DNA of 64,000 bases from Sphingomonas sp. LM7 (GTDB taxonomy: Bacteria > Pseudomonadota > Alphaproteobacteria > Sphingomonadales > Sphingomonadaceae): assembly GCF_002002925.1 (NCBI RefSeq), contig NZ_CP019511.1, positions 1,612,001-1,676,000 of the forward strand, given 5' to 3'. Both the position numbers and the translations under genes were made by a program. A model generated the notes under the pieces. That model was not told the origin of the DNA and ran no database searches. It was given only the letters and a program-made list of their open reading frames with translations. Positions 5,558-13,421 of this stretch are shown here, in pieces. The first letter of the stretch is position 1, and each line of letters begins with the position of its first letter.

Positions 5558-6018
5558 GCGGCGAGCATCGCTTTCGCCGCCGCGAGCACTGCCTCGGCAT
5601 GGCCGGGAACGCGCACCTTGCGCCATGCGCGGAACAGCGTGCCGTCGGCCGCAAACAGGAAGGTCGAACGATCGACGCCCATATAGCGGCGGCCGTAGAG
5701 CTGCTTCTCCACCCACACGCCGAACGCCTCCATGGCCACGCCCTCGGCATCGGTGGCGAGCGGCACGGTCAGGTCGTATTTGACCGCGAATTTCCCGTGT
5801 TTGGCAGCACTGTCCTTCGACACCCCGAGCAGTTCGACGCCGAGCGCGGCGAATTCGGGCAGCAGCGCCGAGAAGTCCTGCGCCTCGCGAGTGCAGCCGG
5901 CCGTGTCGTCCTTGGGATAGAAATAGAGGACCAACGGGCCCTGATGGTCTGCGAGCCGGAACGGCCCGTCGGCCCCTTCCAGCTCGACTGCGGGAAGTCT
6001 GTCGCCCTGATTGATCAT
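5554..6018 (-). CDS. bcp: thioredoxin-dependent peroxiredoxin, Bcp/PrxQ type
   Basis: 154 residues, normal for PrxQ. It reduces hydrogen peroxide and organic peroxides in the cytosol. The peroxidatic cysteine is Cys42 in DDTAGCTREAQDF. The position five residues on, where E. coli Bcp has its resolving cysteine, is Gln here, so this is a single-cysteine variant that must be recycled by an external thiol. The ATG at 6018 overlaps the glnE stop as ATGA, and the gene ends in a GTGA overlap with the DUF455 gene. Confidence 0.9.
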   Translation of the reverse strand: MINQGDRLPAVELEGADGPFRLADHQGPLVLYFYPKDDTAGCTREAQDFSALLPEFAALGVELLGVSKDSAAKHGKFAVKYDLTVPLATDAEGVAMEAFGVWVEKQLYGRRYMGVDRSTFLFAADGTLFRAWRKVRVPGHAEAVLAAAKAMLAA

Positions 6019-8705
6019 CCTGGTCTCCGTCCGTCGCCGGCGCGGATCGCCGCCCAGCACGCGCCTACCTCCTGACGGGTCGCTTCGAGCGAGGCAACCA
6101 CGCCGCCCCAGGATTCGAGCCCCACGGCGCGAGCGATCAGCGCCTGGCTCGCCTCGCCGGGCGGTTGCGCATCGGGCGCGACCAGCCGCAACGTCACCAG
6201 CAAGCGCGAGAGCAAGCCATAGGCGCTAGGCATCGCCGGCGAGAGCAGCCCCTGCGCCACCAGCATGTCGATCGCCTTGCCAAGCCGCGGATCGAACGCA
6301 GTGCGGTGCTGGAGCTGGAGGACATGGACCGCGAATTCGAGATCGACGAGCCCACCGGGCAGCAGCTTGGCGTCGAGCGGCCCCGCAGGCGGTTTGTGCG
6401 ACGCCATCTCCTCACGCATCTTGGTCGCGTCGGCGAGGATGTCGCGCTCCGGCCGCGCGCCTTGCAGCACATCATCGACGATAGCCTGCACTGCCGCCCG
6501 CGCCGCGATCGAGCCGAATACCGGCCGCGCGCGGGTGAGCGCCATATGCTCCCAGGTCCAGGCGTCCTCGTGCTGGTAGCGCGCGAACGCATCGAGCGAG
6601 ACCGAGAGCGGCCCCTGCGCGCCCGAGGGCCGCAGCCGGGTATCGACGTCGTAGAGGGGGCCCGCGGCGGTGGCGACCGACAGCGCGGCGGTCACCCGCT
6701 GCGCGAGGCGGTTATAATAGATCACCGCGCCCAGCGGCTTGGGGCCGTCGGACTCCGCCGCATAGTCGCCGGTGAACAGATAGACGAGGTCGAGATCGGA
6801 GGCATGGGTGAGCGCCTGCCCGCCCATCCGCCCGAGCGCGAGGATGACGAGCTCGCTGTCCTGCACCCGGCCATGCGCGCGCTCGAACTCCGCCACAGTC
6901 GCGGCGGCGAGGACCTCGATCGCGGCTTCGGCGATCCGCGCATAGCCGTGCGACACGTCGAGCGGATCGCTGGCCCCGGCGATAATCTGCGCGCCGAGCG
7001 CAAAACGCTTCTCGCCCACCAGCCGCCGGACATGCTCGAGCTGCCATTGATAGTCGGCGCCGCGCTCGCATGCGGCCATCTCGGCGATCAGCGCCGGAAT
7101 CTCGGCAACGGGATCGAGCGCGCTGGCGTCGATCAGGCCGTCGAGCAGCTCGGCGCGGCGGCCCAATTGCTCGGCCAGCGTCGGCGCGTGGCACAGGATC
7201 GTGCTCATCAACTGGCGCAGCCCAGGCTGCGCTTCGAGCAGGCGGAAGAAGTTGATCGCGCTCGGCAGGCGCGACAGCATCGCATCGAAACGAGTGATCG
7301 CATGCGTGCTGTCGGGCGCCTGGGCGAAGGCATCGACCAGCCCGGGCAGTAGCGCCTCCAGCGCCTCGCGCGCTTGGGGGCTGCGCAACGCCGGATAGCC
7401 GCCGCCGCGCCAGCCCTCGACAATGCGCAGCGCGCCGGCGGCATTCGCGAACCCCGCCGCCGCCAGCCGCGCCTCCAGCGTTTCGGAATCGGAAGGCAGC
7501 CGCGGCTCTTCGTCGCCGGCGAGCGAGTCATAGCGCGTGCCGACGCGCTCGACATGCGGGCGCAGTTGCTCGATCAACGCGGCGCCGTTCGCCAGTCCGT
7601 GCAGCGCCGCGACATTGTCGAGTGCTTGCGGGTTCGACGGCAGCGTGTGGGTCTGTAGGTCATCGACCATCTGCAGCCGGTGCTCGATGGTGCGGAACTC
7701 GACATAGGCGGCGGTCAGCGCCGCGGCATCCCCAGCATCGATCCGCCCGTCGGCGGCGAGCGCTGCCAGCGCGTCGCGCGTCGCCGGCACGCGCAGTGCA
7801 GGATCGCGCCCGCCATGGATCAGCTGGTGTATCTGCGCGAAGAACTCGATCTCGCGGATGCCGCCGCGGCCGCGCTTGAGATCATAGCCGGGGCCGAACG
7901 CCTGGGCCTGGGCGTAATGATCGCGGATCCGGCGCGAAATGTCGCGGATCTCGCGGATCGTGCCGTAATCGACGGCGCGACGCCACACGAACGGCCGGAT
8001 CGCCGAGAGGAAATATTCGCCCAGCCCGGCATCGCCGGCGCAGGCCCGTGCGCGGATGAATGCCGCGCGCTCCCAGGGCAGCGCCTGCGATTCATAGTAT
8101 GAGATCGCCGCCTCTACCGGCAACGCAATCGGCGTGACTTCGGGCGAGGGCCGCAGCCGCAAGTCGACGCGCATGACATAGCCGTCAGCATCGCGCGACT
8201 GGAGCAATTCGATCACCCGCCGGCCGATCCGCACCGCCGCATCCTCGGGCGCTTCGCGTGGTCGGCAGGGCAGCGTCGCCGGATCGAAGATCAGGATCGG
8301 ATCTATATCCGACGAGTAATTGAGCTCGCGGCTGCCCTGCTTGCCCAGCGCGATCGCTGCGAACCCGACCGGCTCGGCATCGGGCGTCCGCTCGCCGATC
8401 GCCGCGCGAATCGCCCGGTCCAGCGCATCGTCGGCAAAGTCGCTCAACAGGCCGGTGACCTTGGTCAGATCGAACCGGCCCGCGAGATCGCCCAGCGCGA
8501 CGAGTAGCGCCAGCCGCCGCCGAGACAGCCGCAGCTTGCGCGATTCAGCGGTTTCGGCATCGAAACTACGCGCAGCCGCCAGCGGATCGTCTAGTGCCTG
8601 CTCCAGGTCGCCGAGCAGATGCGACTCGCGTTCCAGCAACATTGCGAGGAATGTAGAATGCCCGCGTGCGCGATCGACCGCATCCTGCAAGTCTCGGGAA
8701 ATCAC
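6015..8705 (-). CDS. glnE: bifunctional glutamine synthetase adenylyltransferase/deadenylase
   Basis: About 896 residues. Two nucleotidyltransferase halves are visible. The N-terminal deadenylase has GSRELNYSSDID (about residues 120-140), and the C-terminal adenylyltransferase has GGQALTHASDLDLVYLF (about 620-640). It modifies and unmodifies GlnA in response to PII, so it belongs to nitrogen control. I prefer the GTG at 8705, which has AAGGGG seven bases upstream, over the ATG at 8744: the longer N-terminus looks unlike the family and would lie just downstream of a TTGACA element (8752-8757 on the minus strand). The stop overlaps bcp by four bases. Confidence 0.93.
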   Translation of the reverse strand: MISRDLQDAVDRARGHSTFLAMLLERESHLLGDLEQALDDPLAAARSFDAETAESRKLRLSRRRLALLVALGDLAGRFDLTKVTGLLSDFADDALDRAIRAAIGERTPDAEPVGFAAIALGKQGSRELNYSSDIDPILIFDPATLPCRPREAPEDAAVRIGRRVIELLQSRDADGYVMRVDLRLRPSPEVTPIALPVEAAISYYESQALPWERAAFIRARACAGDAGLGEYFLSAIRPFVWRRAVDYGTIREIRDISRRIRDHYAQAQAFGPGYDLKRGRGGIREIEFFAQIHQLIHGGRDPALRVPATRDALAALAADGRIDAGDAAALTAAYVEFRTIEHRLQMVDDLQTHTLPSNPQALDNVAALHGLANGAALIEQLRPHVERVGTRYDSLAGDEEPRLPSDSETLEARLAAAGFANAAGALRIVEGWRGGGYPALRSPQAREALEALLPGLVDAFAQAPDSTHAITRFDAMLSRLPSAINFFRLLEAQPGLRQLMSTILCHAPTLAEQLGRRAELLDGLIDASALDPVAEIPALIAEMAACERGADYQWQLEHVRRLVGEKRFALGAQIIAGASDPLDVSHGYARIAEAAIEVLAAATVAEFERAHGRVQDSELVILALGRMGGQALTHASDLDLVYLFTGDYAAESDGPKPLGAVIYYNRLAQRVTAALSVATAAGPLYDVDTRLRPSGAQGPLSVSLDAFARYQHEDAWTWEHMALTRARPVFGSIAARAAVQAIVDDVLQGARPERDILADATKMREEMASHKPPAGPLDAKLLPGGLVDLEFAVHVLQLQHRTAFDPRLGKAIDMLVAQGLLSPAMPSAYGLLSRLLVTLRLVAPDAQPPGEASQALIARAVGLESWGGVVASLEATRQEVGACWAAIRAGDGRRPG

Positions 8706-8790
8706 AGCGAAACCCCTTGTCGATACGCATCGCGAACAACACATTCAGCAATGTCAAGCAACAAATGTGTTTCTGAGGCGTTTTTGTATC

Positions 8791-8979
8791 GTGACCCGCT
8801 CTTCATCCTGCTCCGCCCCCGAGGCTCCTCTCCGCGCTTATCGCGTCGAGGGCCCTCGCGCCAGCGATGCCATTGGGCTGTCGCTACGCGATGCGTTTGA
8901 CCGCCAAGCCGGCGTGCCCGACGATATGGCGGCACTGCTGCACCGCCTCAACCGCCACGAGATTTCGGTCCGGTATTGA
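8791..8979 (+). CDS. candidate second NepR-like small protein
   Basis: 62 residues from GTG 8791; a GTG at 8767 is also possible. The codon third positions are strongly GC-rich, as in real genes here. The C-terminal half, AIGLSLRDAFD followed by VPDDMAALLHRLN, aligns with the NepR encoded at 11101 (NLGDALRQAYD, then VPDDLLDLLKKLD), with a linker two residues shorter. NepR is the anti-sigma factor of EcfG. This frame ends 65 bases from the end of ecfG, facing it. It could be a paralogous anti-sigma factor or a chance look-alike. The start is uncertain; a GAGG lies 12 bases upstream of 8791. Confidence 0.5.
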   Translation: MTRSSSCSAPEAPLRAYRVEGPRASDAIGLSLRDAFDRQAGVPDDMAALLHRLNRHEISVRY

Positions 8980-9044: not shown

Positions 9045-9698
9045 TCAGCGGTCGCGGCTGAGGTCGTCGACTTCGCCCATGATCGTGTCGAGCGCGCTCT
9101 TGCCACCGGGATTGGGCAGGCTGTCGCGGCGCGACGGCAATTGCCCCTCGGTGAGCAACGATTCGAGCGCGACGCGGCCACGCGCAACGCGGCTCTTGAT
9201 CGTGCCGACTGCCACATTGCAGATTTCGGCCGCCTCTTCATAGGCGAAGCCGCCCGCACCGACGAGGATCAGCGCCTCGCGCTGGGGCTGTGGCAAGTGC
9301 AGCAAGGCGCGCTGCATGTCGTTCAGTTCGACATGGCGATCCTGGCTGGCGGGCGCAGCCAGCAGCCGATCGGCGACCAGATCGTCCCACTCGCCCTTGA
9401 AGCGCGCGCGGCGCATCTGCGAGAGATAGAGATTGCGCAGGATGATAAAGGTCCAGGCGCGCATATTGGTGCCCGCCTGGAAGCGCTGACGCGCCGCCCA
9501 GGCCTTGAGCAACGTCTCTTGCACCAGATCATCGGCGAGATCGCGGCTTCCCGACAGCGAACGCCCGAAGGCGCGCAGATGCGGAATTACCGTCGCCAGT
9601 TGCTTCTTGAACTCCGGATCGGAGAGCGCGACGTGGACGTAAGGCGGCTCGGCTGCCGCGTCGTCGTCGCGATCGTCAGGCTGTTCGGACTCAGTCAT
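9045..9698 (-). CDS. ecfG: EcfG-type general stress response sigma factor
   Basis: 217 residues. Sigma region 2 (about 40-105) includes LADDLVQETLLKAWAARQRF and the segment AWTFIILRNLYLSQMRR. Region 4 (about 125-185) has LPQPQREALILVGAGGFAYE and the helix-turn-helix AVGTIKSRVARGR. This pattern is that of the alphaproteobacterial EcfG sigma factors, which are held by NepR and released when phosphorylated PhyR binds NepR. Its place beside phyR and nepR settles the assignment. ATG 9698 was chosen; the frame stays open to 9773 without family sequence. Confidence 0.93.
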   Translation of the reverse strand: MTESEQPDDRDDDAAAEPPYVHVALSDPEFKKQLATVIPHLRAFGRSLSGSRDLADDLVQETLLKAWAARQRFQAGTNMRAWTFIILRNLYLSQMRRARFKGEWDDLVADRLLAAPASQDRHVELNDMQRALLHLPQPQREALILVGAGGFAYEEAAEICNVAVGTIKSRVARGRVALESLLTEGQLPSRRDSLPNPGGKSALDTIMGEVDDLSRDR

Positions 9699-9795
9699 TC
9701 GATCCCGTTCAATTACGCGTGCGGAAAGGCCGCGTGTATTGGAGATAGGCGCCGCGGGCGCGATTGCCAGCATTTTCAGAAACGGCCCAGAAAGG

Positions 9796-9933
9796 TCAGG
9801 ACCAGAGAATGATAGCGAAGGCGATGATCACCAGCGCCAGGCCGAAGCCCAGCACATAGCGAGTCATGTGCGGCGTTGTACCGGCGCGGGCGCGATCGGT
9901 GGAGACATGGATGGTTTCGTCGTTCTCAGCCAT
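9796..9933 (-). CDS. 45-residue single-pass membrane protein between phyR and ecfG
   Basis: Reads MAENDETIHVSTDRARAG, then a short polar linker, then one hydrophobic segment (about 26-43: YVLGFGLALVIIAFAIIL) ending in WS and a stop. The ATG is at 9933. It is an acidic cytoplasmic tail plus one helix. It lies 62 bases after phyR and 97 bases before ecfG on the same strand, so co-expression with the stress regulators is likely. Similar tiny membrane proteins are, to my recollection, found at this place in other sphingomonads. No function is known to me. Confidence 0.72.
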   Translation of the reverse strand: MAENDETIHVSTDRARAGTTPHMTRYVLGFGLALVIIAFAIILWS

Positions 9934-9995
9934 ACAGTCTCAACCCACGAAAACCGTTTTGGGTCCGTATCGTGTGGAACCCGCGCCGGATTTTT

Positions 9996-10799
9996 TCAGG
10001 CCGTAGCGGGCACGGTCGCCTGATCGAAGAACAGCGCCTGGCTGATCGTCGTCTTCACCGTCTCTCGCTGGAAGGGCTTGGTGATTAGGAAGGTCGGCTC
10101 GGGCCGCTCGCCGGTCAGCAGGCGCTCCGGGAACGCCGTGATGAAGATCACTGGCACGCTGAACTCGGCCAGAATGTCCTTGACCGCATCGATACCAGAA
10201 CTGTCGTCGGCCAACTGGATGTCGGCGAGGACGAGGCCCGGACGGTCCTCCATCGCCAATGCCACCGCTTCGTCGCGCGTGACGGCGACGCCAGTGACTT
10301 CATGGCCGAGATCGCGGACGATCTGCTCGAGGTCCATCGCGATCAGCGGCTCGTCTTCGATGATCATCACGCGGGTACGCGTCTGACGCTCGATCTCAGC
10401 GACTGCATCGGCGACGAGCTGCGACACCTGCGCGGGATCCTCTTCGATAAGATAGCCGGCATCCTCGATGCTGAAGCCCTCGACCGTGGTCAGTAGCAGC
10501 GCCTGGCGCGACAGTGGCGTAAGGCGGGCGAGGCGCTTGCGGGCAATCATCTCGGCTTCGTTCGACGAATCCTCGATGATGTCCTCTTCCTCGAGATGGG
10601 TGGACTGCCAGATCGCCTGGAAGGTCCGATAGAGGCCGAGCCGCGGATCGACTTCGCGGGGAAACTGGTCCGGCGCGGCGACGATGGCTTCAAGTGCGGC
10701 CCGTACATAACGGTCGCCTTCGGCCTGGCTGCCGGTGAGTGCGCGCGCATAGCGGCGAAGCAAGGGAAGGTGCGGCGCGAGTTGCTGTCCAAGCGACAT
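9996..10799 (-). CDS. phyR: PhyR-type response regulator (anti-anti-sigma factor)
   Basis: 267 residues. The N-terminal sigma-like domain (1-125) mimics EcfG for NepR. The C-terminal receiver (about 143-262) has Glu148/Asp149 and the phosphoryl acceptor Asp193 in LADIQLADDSSG, plus FITAFPERL and ITKPF with Lys241, as in the FAT-GUY receiver class. When phosphorylated it binds NepR and frees EcfG. ATG 10799 gives the family start MSLGQQLAPHLP; the extra 19 codons upstream were rejected. It diverges from nepR, with about 300 bases between them. Confidence 0.95.
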   Translation of the reverse strand: MSLGQQLAPHLPLLRRYARALTGSQAEGDRYVRAALEAIVAAPDQFPREVDPRLGLYRTFQAIWQSTHLEEEDIIEDSSNEAEMIARKRLARLTPLSRQALLLTTVEGFSIEDAGYLIEEDPAQVSQLVADAVAEIERQTRTRVMIIEDEPLIAMDLEQIVRDLGHEVTGVAVTRDEAVALAMEDRPGLVLADIQLADDSSGIDAVKDILAEFSVPVIFITAFPERLLTGERPEPTFLITKPFQRETVKTTISQALFFDQATVPATA

Positions 10800-11100
10800 A
10801 AGGGAAATTTTCTCCATCGAGTGCGCGGGCCGCTTTTCGCGCCCCGACGCCTGCATTGCAATCGTTTCTGCTGTCCGAAGGAGCCCCTCCCCGGATTTCG
10901 CATCGCCTGTGGAACAATCGACGCGCTATTTGGTTTCATCGCCCAAGCCATGTGGTGTTTTGCGCGCCACAAGGGCGCTCGCGCACTCGATAAACGGGAT
11001 GCTTGCGCTCTGGCGTCATGACGTTAATCGGGCACCTGAGTGCTCATGCGTATTCAACAGTCCGGGTCCCGGACATCTCGGGTCCTTACGGGGGAAATTG
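10800..11100. other. divergent regulatory region between phyR and nepR
   Basis: 301 bases without a convincing gene. It holds one EcfG-like element on the plus strand (listed separately) and the nepR ribosome binding site. I see no GGAAC box directed at phyR and no strong sigma70 pair. Short frames here have poor codon character. Confidence 0.6.
10911..10935 (+). promoter_or_regulatory. EcfG-like promoter upstream of nepR
   Basis: GGAAC at 10911-10915 is followed, after 16 bases, by GGTT at 10932-10935. The known EcfG consensus is GGAAC-N16/17-CGTT, so one base of the -10 element differs. It points to nepR and the sensor gene, giving a leader of about 160 bases, and would provide the autoregulation usual at this locus. 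Confidence 0.45.
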
Positions 11101-11268
11101 GTGCGTTCGGCAAAGGATGAAAAAAAGGGGTCGCCCAAGTCAAAGGGCGGGACGGAGAGCAGCAAGCCCAGCCGCAACCTGGGCGATGCGCTGCGCCAAG
11201 CCTATGACGAGGCCGTTCGCGAGACCGTGCCCGACGATCTTCTCGACCTTCTGAAGAAGCTCGACTAG
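11101..11268 (+). CDS. nepR: NepR anti-sigma factor
   Basis: 55 residues. A Lys/Ser-rich start is followed by the NepR core NLGDALRQAYDEAV and VPDDLLDLLKKLD at the C-terminus. These are the two helices that clamp EcfG or, alternatively, phosphorylated PhyR. The start is GTG 11101, with GGGGGAAA six bases upstream. The sensor gene follows after nine bases, so the two are one unit. Confidence 0.9.
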   Translation: MRSAKDEKKGSPKSKGGTESSKPSRNLGDALRQAYDEAVRETVPDDLLDLLKKLD

Positions 11269-11277
11269 CCAAGCATC

Positions 11278-12846
11278 ATGGACAGTACGGATCTGGAGCC
11301 GCGTGCCAAGGGTGTCGCGGCGGCGCTGACGCGTATGCCGACAGGCGCGAAGCTGTTCCTGATCCTCGTGGGCGCGCTGCTTCCACTGGCGCTGATCGCC
11401 CTGTTCATCACGATCCAGACCACCCGCACCGCTGACACCGAGGCACGCGCGCGGCTCAGCGCGATCACCGACGAGAGTTCGGGCGTGGTCGAGAACGCTC
11501 TCACCAACGAAGCGAGCGAGCTGCGCGGCACGCTCGGTGCGCTGGAGCGCGATCCGCACGACGCCGACAGCTGCACCCGCCTCGCCGGCGGATTCGCGAC
11601 GCAGGGTGGTGTGCGCTTCGCTATCGTCGATTCCCGCGGCCGCGTATTGTGCGGCCAGCGCTTTACGCTGCCGGTGACGGGCGCGCTTCGCCCGGCGGAA
11701 GTACGCGTGTCGATTCTCACCGACGGCCTTGCCATACGCGTCGGCGGCAATGGCGGCATGACTGCGACTGCATGGTATCCTGTCTCGGCCTTGTCGGCGC
11801 TTGCCCGACCGAGCGGCTTCGTCCCCGACTACGGCGCCGCGCTGGTCCGCAACGACCAGCGGCTGGTGTTGCGCCAGATCGGCACTGCCGGTCCTCTCGG
11901 CCGCCGCGAGACCGCGCGCAGCGATCTCGCGCTCGACCGGCTCGGGCTGGAAATGTCGATGCCGGGAGCGCCGATCACTTCGCCGCTGATCCTCACCACC
12001 GTGCTGCTCGTGCTGATGTGGATCGTCGCCGCGGCGATCAGCTGGTTCGTCGTCGACATCCTGCTGATCCGCCCGCTGCGCCGGCTGCGCACCAGCGTCG
12101 GCAAGTACCAGCCGGGCGAAGTGCTCGACATGAAGCGCTTCGGCGCGATCCCGGCGCAGGAAATCCGCGAGCTGGGCGAGACCTTCCAGCAGATCACCCG
12201 CACGGTGCAGGCGCACGAATCGGACCTGGCCGAGGGGCTGGTGCGCCAGACCAAGCTCACCCGCGAAGTCCATCACCGGGTGAAGAACAACCTGCAGGTC
12301 ATTTCCAGCCTGATCAACTTCCACGCGCGCGGCGCCAAGAGCGCCGAGGCGACCGAGGCCTATTCTTCGATCCAGCGCCGAGTCGATGCGCTCGCGGTGG
12401 TCCATCGCCACCACTATGCCGAGCTGGAGGAGAATCGCGGGCTCGATCTGCGCTCGATCATCGGCGAGCTTGCCGCCAATATCCGCGCCACCGCGCCCGA
12501 GCGCGCCGCCGGGCTGGGCATCACGCTCGAGATCGAGCCGCTGCTGGTCAACCAGGATGTTGCGATCGCCGTCGCCTTCCTGATCACCGAGATCGTCGAG
12601 CTCGCCGTCAACGGCAATCCTTCTGCACAGGTGCGCATCTCGATCAAGGGTGGCGACGAGCCCGACCGTGCGATCCTGCGCGTCAATTCGCCTTCGCTGG
12701 TGGAGAGCGCCGAAATGGAAGCGCTGCTCGAGAATCGCTACGGCCGCATCATCGCCGGGCTCGCCCGGCAGCTGCGTACCCGGCTTCACCACGACCCGCT
12801 GGTCGGCGCCTATGAAGCCTCGATCGCGATCACCGGACGCCCCTAG
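11278..12846 (+). CDS. PhyP-like HisKA_2 sensor protein with degenerate ATPase domain
   Basis: 522 residues. Membrane segments lie at about 24-46 and 232-258 and enclose a periplasmic sensor of about 185 residues. A HAMP-like linker follows, then the HisKA_2 dimerisation helix with EVHHRVKNNLQV (acceptor His333). The C-terminal ATPase-like domain is altered: where HisKA_2 kinases have NELVTNA in the N box it reads TEIVELAV, and no DNGxG G1 box or glycine-rich G2 box can be found. It may therefore act on PhyR as a phosphatase rather than a kinase. PhyP of Sphingomonas, encoded at the same locus, is a known negative regulator of PhyR. Confidence 0.85.
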   Translation: MDSTDLEPRAKGVAAALTRMPTGAKLFLILVGALLPLALIALFITIQTTRTADTEARARLSAITDESSGVVENALTNEASELRGTLGALERDPHDADSCTRLAGGFATQGGVRFAIVDSRGRVLCGQRFTLPVTGALRPAEVRVSILTDGLAIRVGGNGGMTATAWYPVSALSALARPSGFVPDYGAALVRNDQRLVLRQIGTAGPLGRRETARSDLALDRLGLEMSMPGAPITSPLILTTVLLVLMWIVAAAISWFVVDILLIRPLRRLRTSVGKYQPGEVLDMKRFGAIPAQEIRELGETFQQITRTVQAHESDLAEGLVRQTKLTREVHHRVKNNLQVISSLINFHARGAKSAEATEAYSSIQRRVDALAVVHRHHYAELEENRGLDLRSIIGELAANIRATAPERAAGLGITLEIEPLLVNQDVAIAVAFLITEIVELAVNGNPSAQVRISIKGGDEPDRAILRVNSPSLVESAEMEALLENRYGRIIAGLARQLRTRLHHDPLVGAYEASIAITGRP

Positions 12847-13046: not shown

Positions 13047-13071
13047 GGAACCCTGTTCCGAAATGCTCGTT
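13047..13071 (+). promoter_or_regulatory. perfect EcfG (general stress response) promoter
   Basis: GGAAC at 13047-13051, then exactly 16 bases, then CGTT at 13068-13071. This is an exact match to the known EcfG consensus GGAAC-N16/17-CGTT. Transcription would start near 13078, pass through the 13125-13170 hairpin and reach the entericidin gene at 13287 after a leader of about 210 bases. The sigma factor itself is encoded 3.3 kb away. Confidence 0.8.
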
Positions 13072-13286: not shown

Positions 13287-13421
13287 ATGCGCAAGATTTT
13301 CACCTGTGCCGCGCTCGCGAGCGCGATCCTGGTCTCGGCCTGCAACACCGTTGAAGGCGTTGGCCGTGACGTTTCGTCGGCTGGCGACACTGTCGCGAAG
13401 ACTGCAGACGACGCGAAGTAA
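13287..13421 (+). CDS. entericidin A/B family lipoprotein
   Basis: 44 residues: a basic start, a hydrophobic stretch, and the lipobox VSAC with Cys19. A short mature part (NTVEGVGRDVSSAGDTVAKTA) has the glycine and DxxxAGD pattern of entericidins. It should be an outer-membrane-bound small lipoprotein. GGAGAG lies about eight bases before the ATG. It sits behind a perfect EcfG promoter and ahead of its own terminator, so it is probably a general stress response gene; entericidin genes are often stress-induced. Confidence 0.88.
   Translation: MRKIFTCAALASAILVSACNTVEGVGRDVSSAGDTVAKTADDAK

Follow-up and report, generated by a model that had tools for sequence, protein, structure and literature searches.

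A NepR2-type gene beside ecfG in Sphingomonas, with a conserved promoter-start layout that suggests a leaderless mRNA

The frame next to ecfG in Sphingomonas sp. LM7, which lies in the window analysed here (the whole stretch of 64,000 nucleotides from contig NZ_CP019511.1), encodes a protein of the already known NepR2 type, described in 2019 in S. melonis Fr1 (PMC6599016), and the RNA of its gene, judged by the sequence, probably has its first base at the start codon or one nucleotide away, which would make nepR2 leaderless. The leaderless reading is drawn from the gap of 8-9 nt between the -10 box and the start codon, from the concentration of start codons at those offsets and from a pyrimidine at position -1. 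The protein itself is thus known, and what is newly added is the spread of nepR2, the conserved geometry of promoter and start codon, and the probable leaderlessness. The genes of the locus are the following:

6015-8744, minus strand: glnE, the divergent neighbour of nepR2
8791-8979, plus strand: nepR2, 62 amino acids, GTG start
9045-9773, minus strand: ecfG, with the extent given by the ORF finder; Pfam Sigma70_r2 and r4_2
9996-10856, minus strand: phyR (NCBIfam NF006623, 378 bits)
11101-11268, plus strand: canonical nepR, 55 amino acids (Pfam NepR, 41.4 bits; PDB 2LFW_B and 3T0Y_B)
11278-12846, plus strand: HisKA_2 protein in the phyT/phyP position, named from that position after PMC6599016

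An earlier TTG gives the same nepR2 frame as 8320-8979 in the ORF finder list, and the true start of ecfG is likely to be the ATG at 9698 rather than the listed one. The two genes stand tail to tail, as a preliminary description of this DNA had stated.

The frame at 8791-8979 is very probably the orthologue of Fr1 NepR2, which is a paralogue of NepR and provides negative feedback on the general stress response (GSR), an assignment based on place, residue numbering and EcfG dependence, with the Fr1 sequence itself outside the comparison. In Fr1, NepR2 (#1448) adjoins ecfG (#1447) and belongs to the EcfG regulon (Gottschlich and co-workers, PMC6599016). Knockout of nepR2 raises GSR reporter activity and its overexpression lowers both reporter activity and salt resistance, while the protein co-precipitates PhyR, with L31 and F35 being functional; the rise of #1448 after a mix of stresses was just under the authors' cut-off (PMC6599016). 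The key residues of the window protein are L32, R33, F36 and M46, of which the first three correspond to L31, R32 and F35 of Fr1 NepR2, and NepR2 of S. melonis AS2.3 has exactly L31, R32 and F35. The Fr1 and window proteins share the ecfG neighbour, a NepR-like C-terminal half and these key residues, but the distance F35-M46 in Fr1 is one residue longer than F36-M46 in the window, and EcfG dependence was shown in Fr1, whereas the EcfG-type motif GCAAC-N16-CGTT of the window gene is read from sequence. The leaderless layout, the spread in the genus and the N-terminal motif described below were not found in the available part of PMC6599016.

In the open-licence literature on NepR2 with PhyR, the only NepR2 papers are PMC6599016 and PMC7083833. 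The latter concerns nepR2 (SGRAN_1162) of Sphingopyxis granuli TFA, which has the same name and an EcfG-type promoter but is the first gene of a nepR2-ecfG1 operon and overlaps ecfG1 by 4 bp (PMC7083833). A NepR homologue of Methylobacterium extorquens, MexAM1_META2p0735, is comparable in having an EcfG-type promoter, PhyR binding and a negative effect on overexpression (PMC4814048). Sinorhizobium meliloti likewise has two NepR-type proteins, RsiA1 and RsiA2, in one GSR, but these differ in that both bind the sigma factor RpoE2 and in that rsiA2 is not rpoE2-dependent (PMC4814048, PMC3616915).

Window NepR2 and the NepR at 11101 have in common the pattern I/L-G-x-x-LR-x-A-(F/Y)-D followed by VPDD(M/L)-x-x-LL-x-x-L(N/D), and the translation bears out what had been said of the 62-residue frame on this point. 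The linker is two residues shorter, again as described before, with a distance from F36 to P43 of 7 in NepR2 against 9 in NepR. A search with the NepR family model had been proposed as a check, and its outcome was divided: as a single sequence, window NepR2 reaches 13.4 bits (E 0.062) with Pfam NepR (PF18557), missing the gathering score of 25.7, and single-sequence searches of NCBIfam (E 0.084) and PDB (E 0.79) gave no significant match, whereas hhalign of 51 NepR2 against 30 NepR rows gave a probability of 97.2% and an E-value of 3.3e-11 over 32 columns, the linker being aligned with a gap of two residues. The 51 rows are the window and 50 of 68 NepR2 frames from the EcfG-locus set, and the 30 rows are the window and 29 of 77 canonical NepR. 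At E<=1, 17 of the 51 family members match PF18557, the best of them at 4.8e-4; a PDB search with the NepR2 profile recovers the NepR chain 2LFW_B (E 4e-4), and the same profile detects a canonical-type NepR core in all 80 EcfG loci (best 80 of 553), mostly at 14-28 bits. By sequence, NepR2 and NepR are hence homologous, which is clear from the family profiles despite the non-significant single-sequence searches.

The linker difference extends to the relatives, as the spacing from the helix-1 aromatic to the proline is 9 in 77/77 canonical NepR, while in 68 NepR2 frames it is 7 in 56, 6 in six and 8 in one, with five unmatched (both from the best 80 of 553 EcfG loci); four relatives from one other genus (L204, L206-L208) have an intermediate spacing of 8 by eye. 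Three parts of NepR2 were distinguished:

8839-8868, plus strand: NepR2-specific stretch YxVxxPRxxD ahead of helix 1, from the 51-row alignment
8869-8907, plus strand: predicted helix 1, residues 27-39, including L32, R33 and F36 (AlphaFold2 monomer; aligned with NepR)
8920-8958, plus strand: predicted helix 2, residues 44-56, past the shortened linker with P43 (AlphaFold2 monomer)

In the first of these, D26 is invariant and V19 and P22 are conserved in at least 90% of the 51 rows. The monomer models have mean pLDDT values of 69 for NepR2 and 66 for NepR, whose helices are modelled at 23-40 and 45-54, so the model of window NepR2, in which a helix-linker-helix with the L, R, Y/F and M/L contact residues is present, is of moderate confidence. 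Helix 1 of NepR2 appears in these models to end about half a turn sooner than that of NepR, past the conserved LR. Compared with NepR (PF18557; PDB 2LFW, 3T0Y and 5UXX), NepR2 thus has the same two helices and the motifs G-x-x-LR-x-x-(F/Y) and (V/L)P-x-x-(M/L)-x-x-LL-x-x-L, but differs in the shorter linker, the added VxxPRxxD stretch and the leaderless layout.

The proposed mechanism starts with free EcfG, which would transcribe nepR2 from GCAAC-N16-CGTT, as suggested by sequence and conservation and by the EcfG dependence shown in Fr1 (PMC6599016). The 5' end of the RNA would coincide with the start codon or lie a single base away, and translation would proceed without a leader, in keeping with the geometry in 68 of 71 relatives (from the best 80 of 553 loci). 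NepR2 would then bind PhyR via its two NepR-type helices, for which the co-precipitation in Fr1 (PMC6599016) and the conservation of the helices and of L, R and F/Y here can be cited, and once PhyR is occupied, canonical NepR would be free to rebind EcfG and the response would be damped, consistent with the net negative effect in Fr1 (PMC6599016).

In another reading, NepR2 would itself capture EcfG and so be a genuine second anti-sigma factor, like RsiA1 and RsiA2 with RpoE2. The NepR-type helices and contact residues are retained in NepR2, and the two NepR proteins of S. meliloti each bind their sigma factor (PMC4814048), but no stabilised NepR2-EcfG complex was seen in the Fr1 two-hybrid, which was uninformative with both proteins unstable and led the authors to consider that there is perhaps no complex (PMC6599016). 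In M. extorquens, two of three NepR homologues bound PhyR and none bound EcfG, and they were called possible anti-anti-anti-sigma factors, with the authors allowing for missed interactions (PMC4814048). The shorter linker and the earlier end of helix 1 in the monomer models also speak against direct sequestration, as does the Glu before VP, which is invariant in the 30 NepR rows and missing from window NepR2. NepR2 may bind EcfG directly, but the present data lend this no support, and we regard a second anti-sigma factor as rather unlikely. Of the earlier proposal of a second NepR-type anti-sigma brake, the brake has been shown in Fr1 (PMC6599016), while the anti-sigma part finds no EcfG complex behind it in Fr1 (PMC6599016) or M. 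extorquens (PMC4814048).

In a first set of 61 genomes (own included), nepR2 matches were found in 38 at E<=0.1, some of the weak ones being spurious, and the conserved order is glnE(-)/nepR2(+)/ecfG(-)/ORF45(-)/phyR(-). A second set was drawn by an EcfG scan with no selection for NepR2, and the loci named here are the best 80 of 553. In 71 of these 80 loci nepR2 adjoins ecfG, in agreement with the expectation that the frame would be kept in related sphingomonads, and in seven of the remaining nine genomes, including S. melonis AS2.3, it lies beside glnE elsewhere. Since nepR2 remains beside glnE where ecfG stands apart, glnE, found in 72/80 loci (best 80 of 553), is as much its constant neighbour as ecfG. 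Counted by genome, a NepR2 frame is present in 78 of the 80 (best 80 of 553), one of them weak (24-26 bits, genome of L134), and in the genomes of L114 and L125 canonical NepR alone is among the strong matches, with no NepR2. Beyond the genus, nepR2 lies beside glnE with the same start layout in five loci of two genera (L204, L206, L207, L208 and L212). In S. melonis AS2.3 (L084, L168), a TonB-dependent receptor (Pfam Plug) follows ecfG and nepR2 lies beside glnE elsewhere, an arrangement unlike the published one of Fr1, where nepR2 adjoins ecfG (PMC6599016). NepR2-like frames that have diverged strongly and carry HAGV or HAGI ahead of LR occur in Sphingomicrobium, Sphingosinicella, Sphingomonas arenae and an alphaproteobacterium (L127, L128, L132 and L133), and those of L128 and L132 have a GTG start 8-9 nt past CGTT.

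The elements ahead of the window gene are:

8758-8762, plus strand: -35 box GCAAC of the EcfG-type nepR2 promoter (sequence and conservation)
8779-8782, plus strand: -10 box CGTT, 16 nt past the -35 box (sequence and conservation)
8791, plus strand: putative leaderless mRNA start (promoter geometry)

GCAAC-N16-CGTT is thus followed by an 8-nt gap and the GTG at 8791. In the first set, GTT is followed 8 or 9 nt later by a start codon in frame in 29/29 loci, the script having sought this spacing itself; the -35 box, which was not part of the criterion, stands at the right spacing as GCAAC in 20, GAAAC in seven and AAACC in two (weak or non-syntenic loci, L002-L005 and L032, being excluded). In the second set (from the best 80 of 553), the start codon lies 8-9 nt past the -10 box in 68/71, with a gap of 8 in 39 and of 9 in 29, and is ATG in 63 and GTG in five. 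Of these 68 relatives (best 80 of 553), 66 carry GCAAC or GAAAC as the -35 box with the spacing unchanged, and the -10 box is CGTT in 59, GGTT in six and TGTT in three. The exceptions to the 8-9 nt layout are L115, L127 and L133, which have divergent NepR2-like frames (gaps of 7 or 10 in L127 and L133), and L209, L210 and L215 from another genus.

A motif search independent of the start codon gave 68 loci with the strict motif (from the best 80 of 553), not quite identical to the 68 with the 8-9 nt layout, and in these a start codon in any frame stands at offset 8 in 38 and at offset 9 in 28, with no more than seven loci having one at any of the remaining offsets between 0 and 39; in 65/68 it is at offset 8 or 9 that the first in-frame start is met. 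At -1 of the nepR2 start, 54 loci have C and nine have T, hence a pyrimidine in 63/68 (from the best 80 of 553), and a pyrimidine at -1 is usual for a transcription start. In Caulobacter, the SigT motif lies at -34 of a mapped transcription start. Within the own genome, GSAAC-N16-CGTT is not enriched, with 70 matches against 93 for the reversed control, and the promoter together with a start codon occurs seven times against four. As seven against four is little, a motif match in a single genome proves little, and the argument rests on conservation across genomes.

Canonical nepR is organised differently. A GGAAC-N16-GGTT motif read from the sequence lies about 165 nt from its start:

10911-10935, plus strand: GGAAC-N16-GGTT ahead of canonical nepR

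In 77/77 relatives (from the best 80 of 553) there is an EcfG-type motif within 500 nt upstream of the conserved canonical core, 116-273 nt ahead of it; canonical NepR was assigned by position in 77/80 (best 80 of 553), with L065, L075 and L095 missed though the core is present. A Shine-Dalgarno-like string precedes canonical nepR in 74/77, where the nepR start was picked by that criterion, and nepR2 in 8/68 (both from the best 80 of 553). If nepR2 is leaderless, the locus would offer a natural contrast, as of its two related brakes NepR would be made from an mRNA with a long leader and NepR2 from one that lacks a leader.

A second apparently leaderless gene lies between ecfG and phyR:

9796-9933, minus strand: ORF45, 45 amino acids, with one likely membrane span
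9942-9966, minus strand: ORF45 promoter GGACC-N16-GGTT, 8 nt ahead of the ATG (sequence and conservation)

ORF45, for which no family was found in Pfam or NCBIfam, lies near ecfG and phyR in 79/80 loci (best 80 of 553), and the layout of an EcfG-like -35 box, N16, NGTT and a start 8-9 nt on is present in 65/79 (from the best 80 of 553); in L131 the start as counted is an upstream GTG, and apart from L131 and L136 these 65 loci share GGA(C/G)C as the -35 box. By place and motif, ORF45 corresponds to Fr1 #1446, which has nearly the same motif and, with a log2 value of -6.2, one of the strongest EcfG effects (PMC6599016). The motif of #1446 lies 2 nt from the annotated start in the EcfG table (PMC6599016), and this start is taken as annotated too early. 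In the same table the motif stands within 10 nt of the annotated start in 5/50 genes (#0072, #1446, #1612, #1765 and #2534; PMC6599016), hence EcfG targets without a leader probably form a minority class, of which nepR2 would not be the only member.

It could be argued that nepR2 is not leaderless, the RNA starting further up or the true start codon lying further down, with the 8-9 nt spacing a by-product of the crowded glnE-nepR2 intergenic region. At least one further in-frame start precedes the core in 49/68 loci (from the best 80 of 553), and the window has a Shine-Dalgarno-like GAGG at 8775-8778, 12 nt ahead of the GTG and within the promoter. However, the presence of a start codon 8 or 9 nt past the motif in 66/68 and C at -1 in 54/68 (both from the best 80 of 553) argue against this, and the layout is also found in 7/7 places where nepR2 stands apart from ecfG, in the five loci of two other genera and, in a different neighbourhood, ahead of ORF45, so that we consider a leadered nepR2 improbable. 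Leaderless mRNAs are common in alphaproteobacteria (PMC4117421, PMC3616915), hence leaderlessness by itself is no exotic trait; in Caulobacter, 375 leaderless mRNAs are translated about as well as others (PMC4117421). In S. meliloti, AUG is the start codon of all 171 leaderless mRNAs, AUG being part of that study's gene-prediction rule for leaderless ORFs (PMC3616915), which makes the leaderless GTG of the window a point of doubt. In the main texts of the open-licence papers searched, no description of EcfG targets or of NepR2 as leaderless was found.

That nepR2 is a non-functional relic of a nepR duplication, as might be suggested by how fast it diverges (the 51 rows have a mean column identity of 36%), is hardly credible given dN/dS values of 0.10-0.61 in 14 equal-length pairs of relatives, which indicate purifying selection in frame (27 of 28 values from shifted frames lie above the in-frame ones; the pairs, of 70-97% DNA identity, overlap and exclude the window), the retained promoter, the frame in 78/80 genomes (best 80 of 553; one weak) and the function shown in Fr1 (PMC6599016).

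A leaderless nepR2 invites a further and distinctly speculative idea, to which we give a low probability, namely that EcfG drives a conserved leaderless sub-regulon, with nepR2 and ORF45 at the GSR locus. With one brake leaderless and nepR under a long leader, synthesis of the NepR2 brake would escape 5'-UTR and Shine-Dalgarno control, rise relative to NepR when ordinary initiation drops under stress and set the timing of the shut-off via competition for PhyR, as an anti-anti-anti-sigma loop tuned at translation.

Five more promoters with a start codon 8-9 nt on were seen in the own genome (L217-L220 and L223), ahead of open frames of 50-264 codons, the longest of which looks outer-membrane-like by eye; with seven occurrences against four in the control, these frames are weak candidates for leaderless EcfG targets. 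Within the window, GGAAC-N16-CGTT at 13047-13071 lies 215 nt upstream of a lipoprotein-like frame of 44 amino acids (13287-13421, plus strand), which we take to resemble entericidin. Near the same genes in Fr1, the EcfG targets include #1442, annotated as a 'predicted small secreted protein' (PMC6599016).
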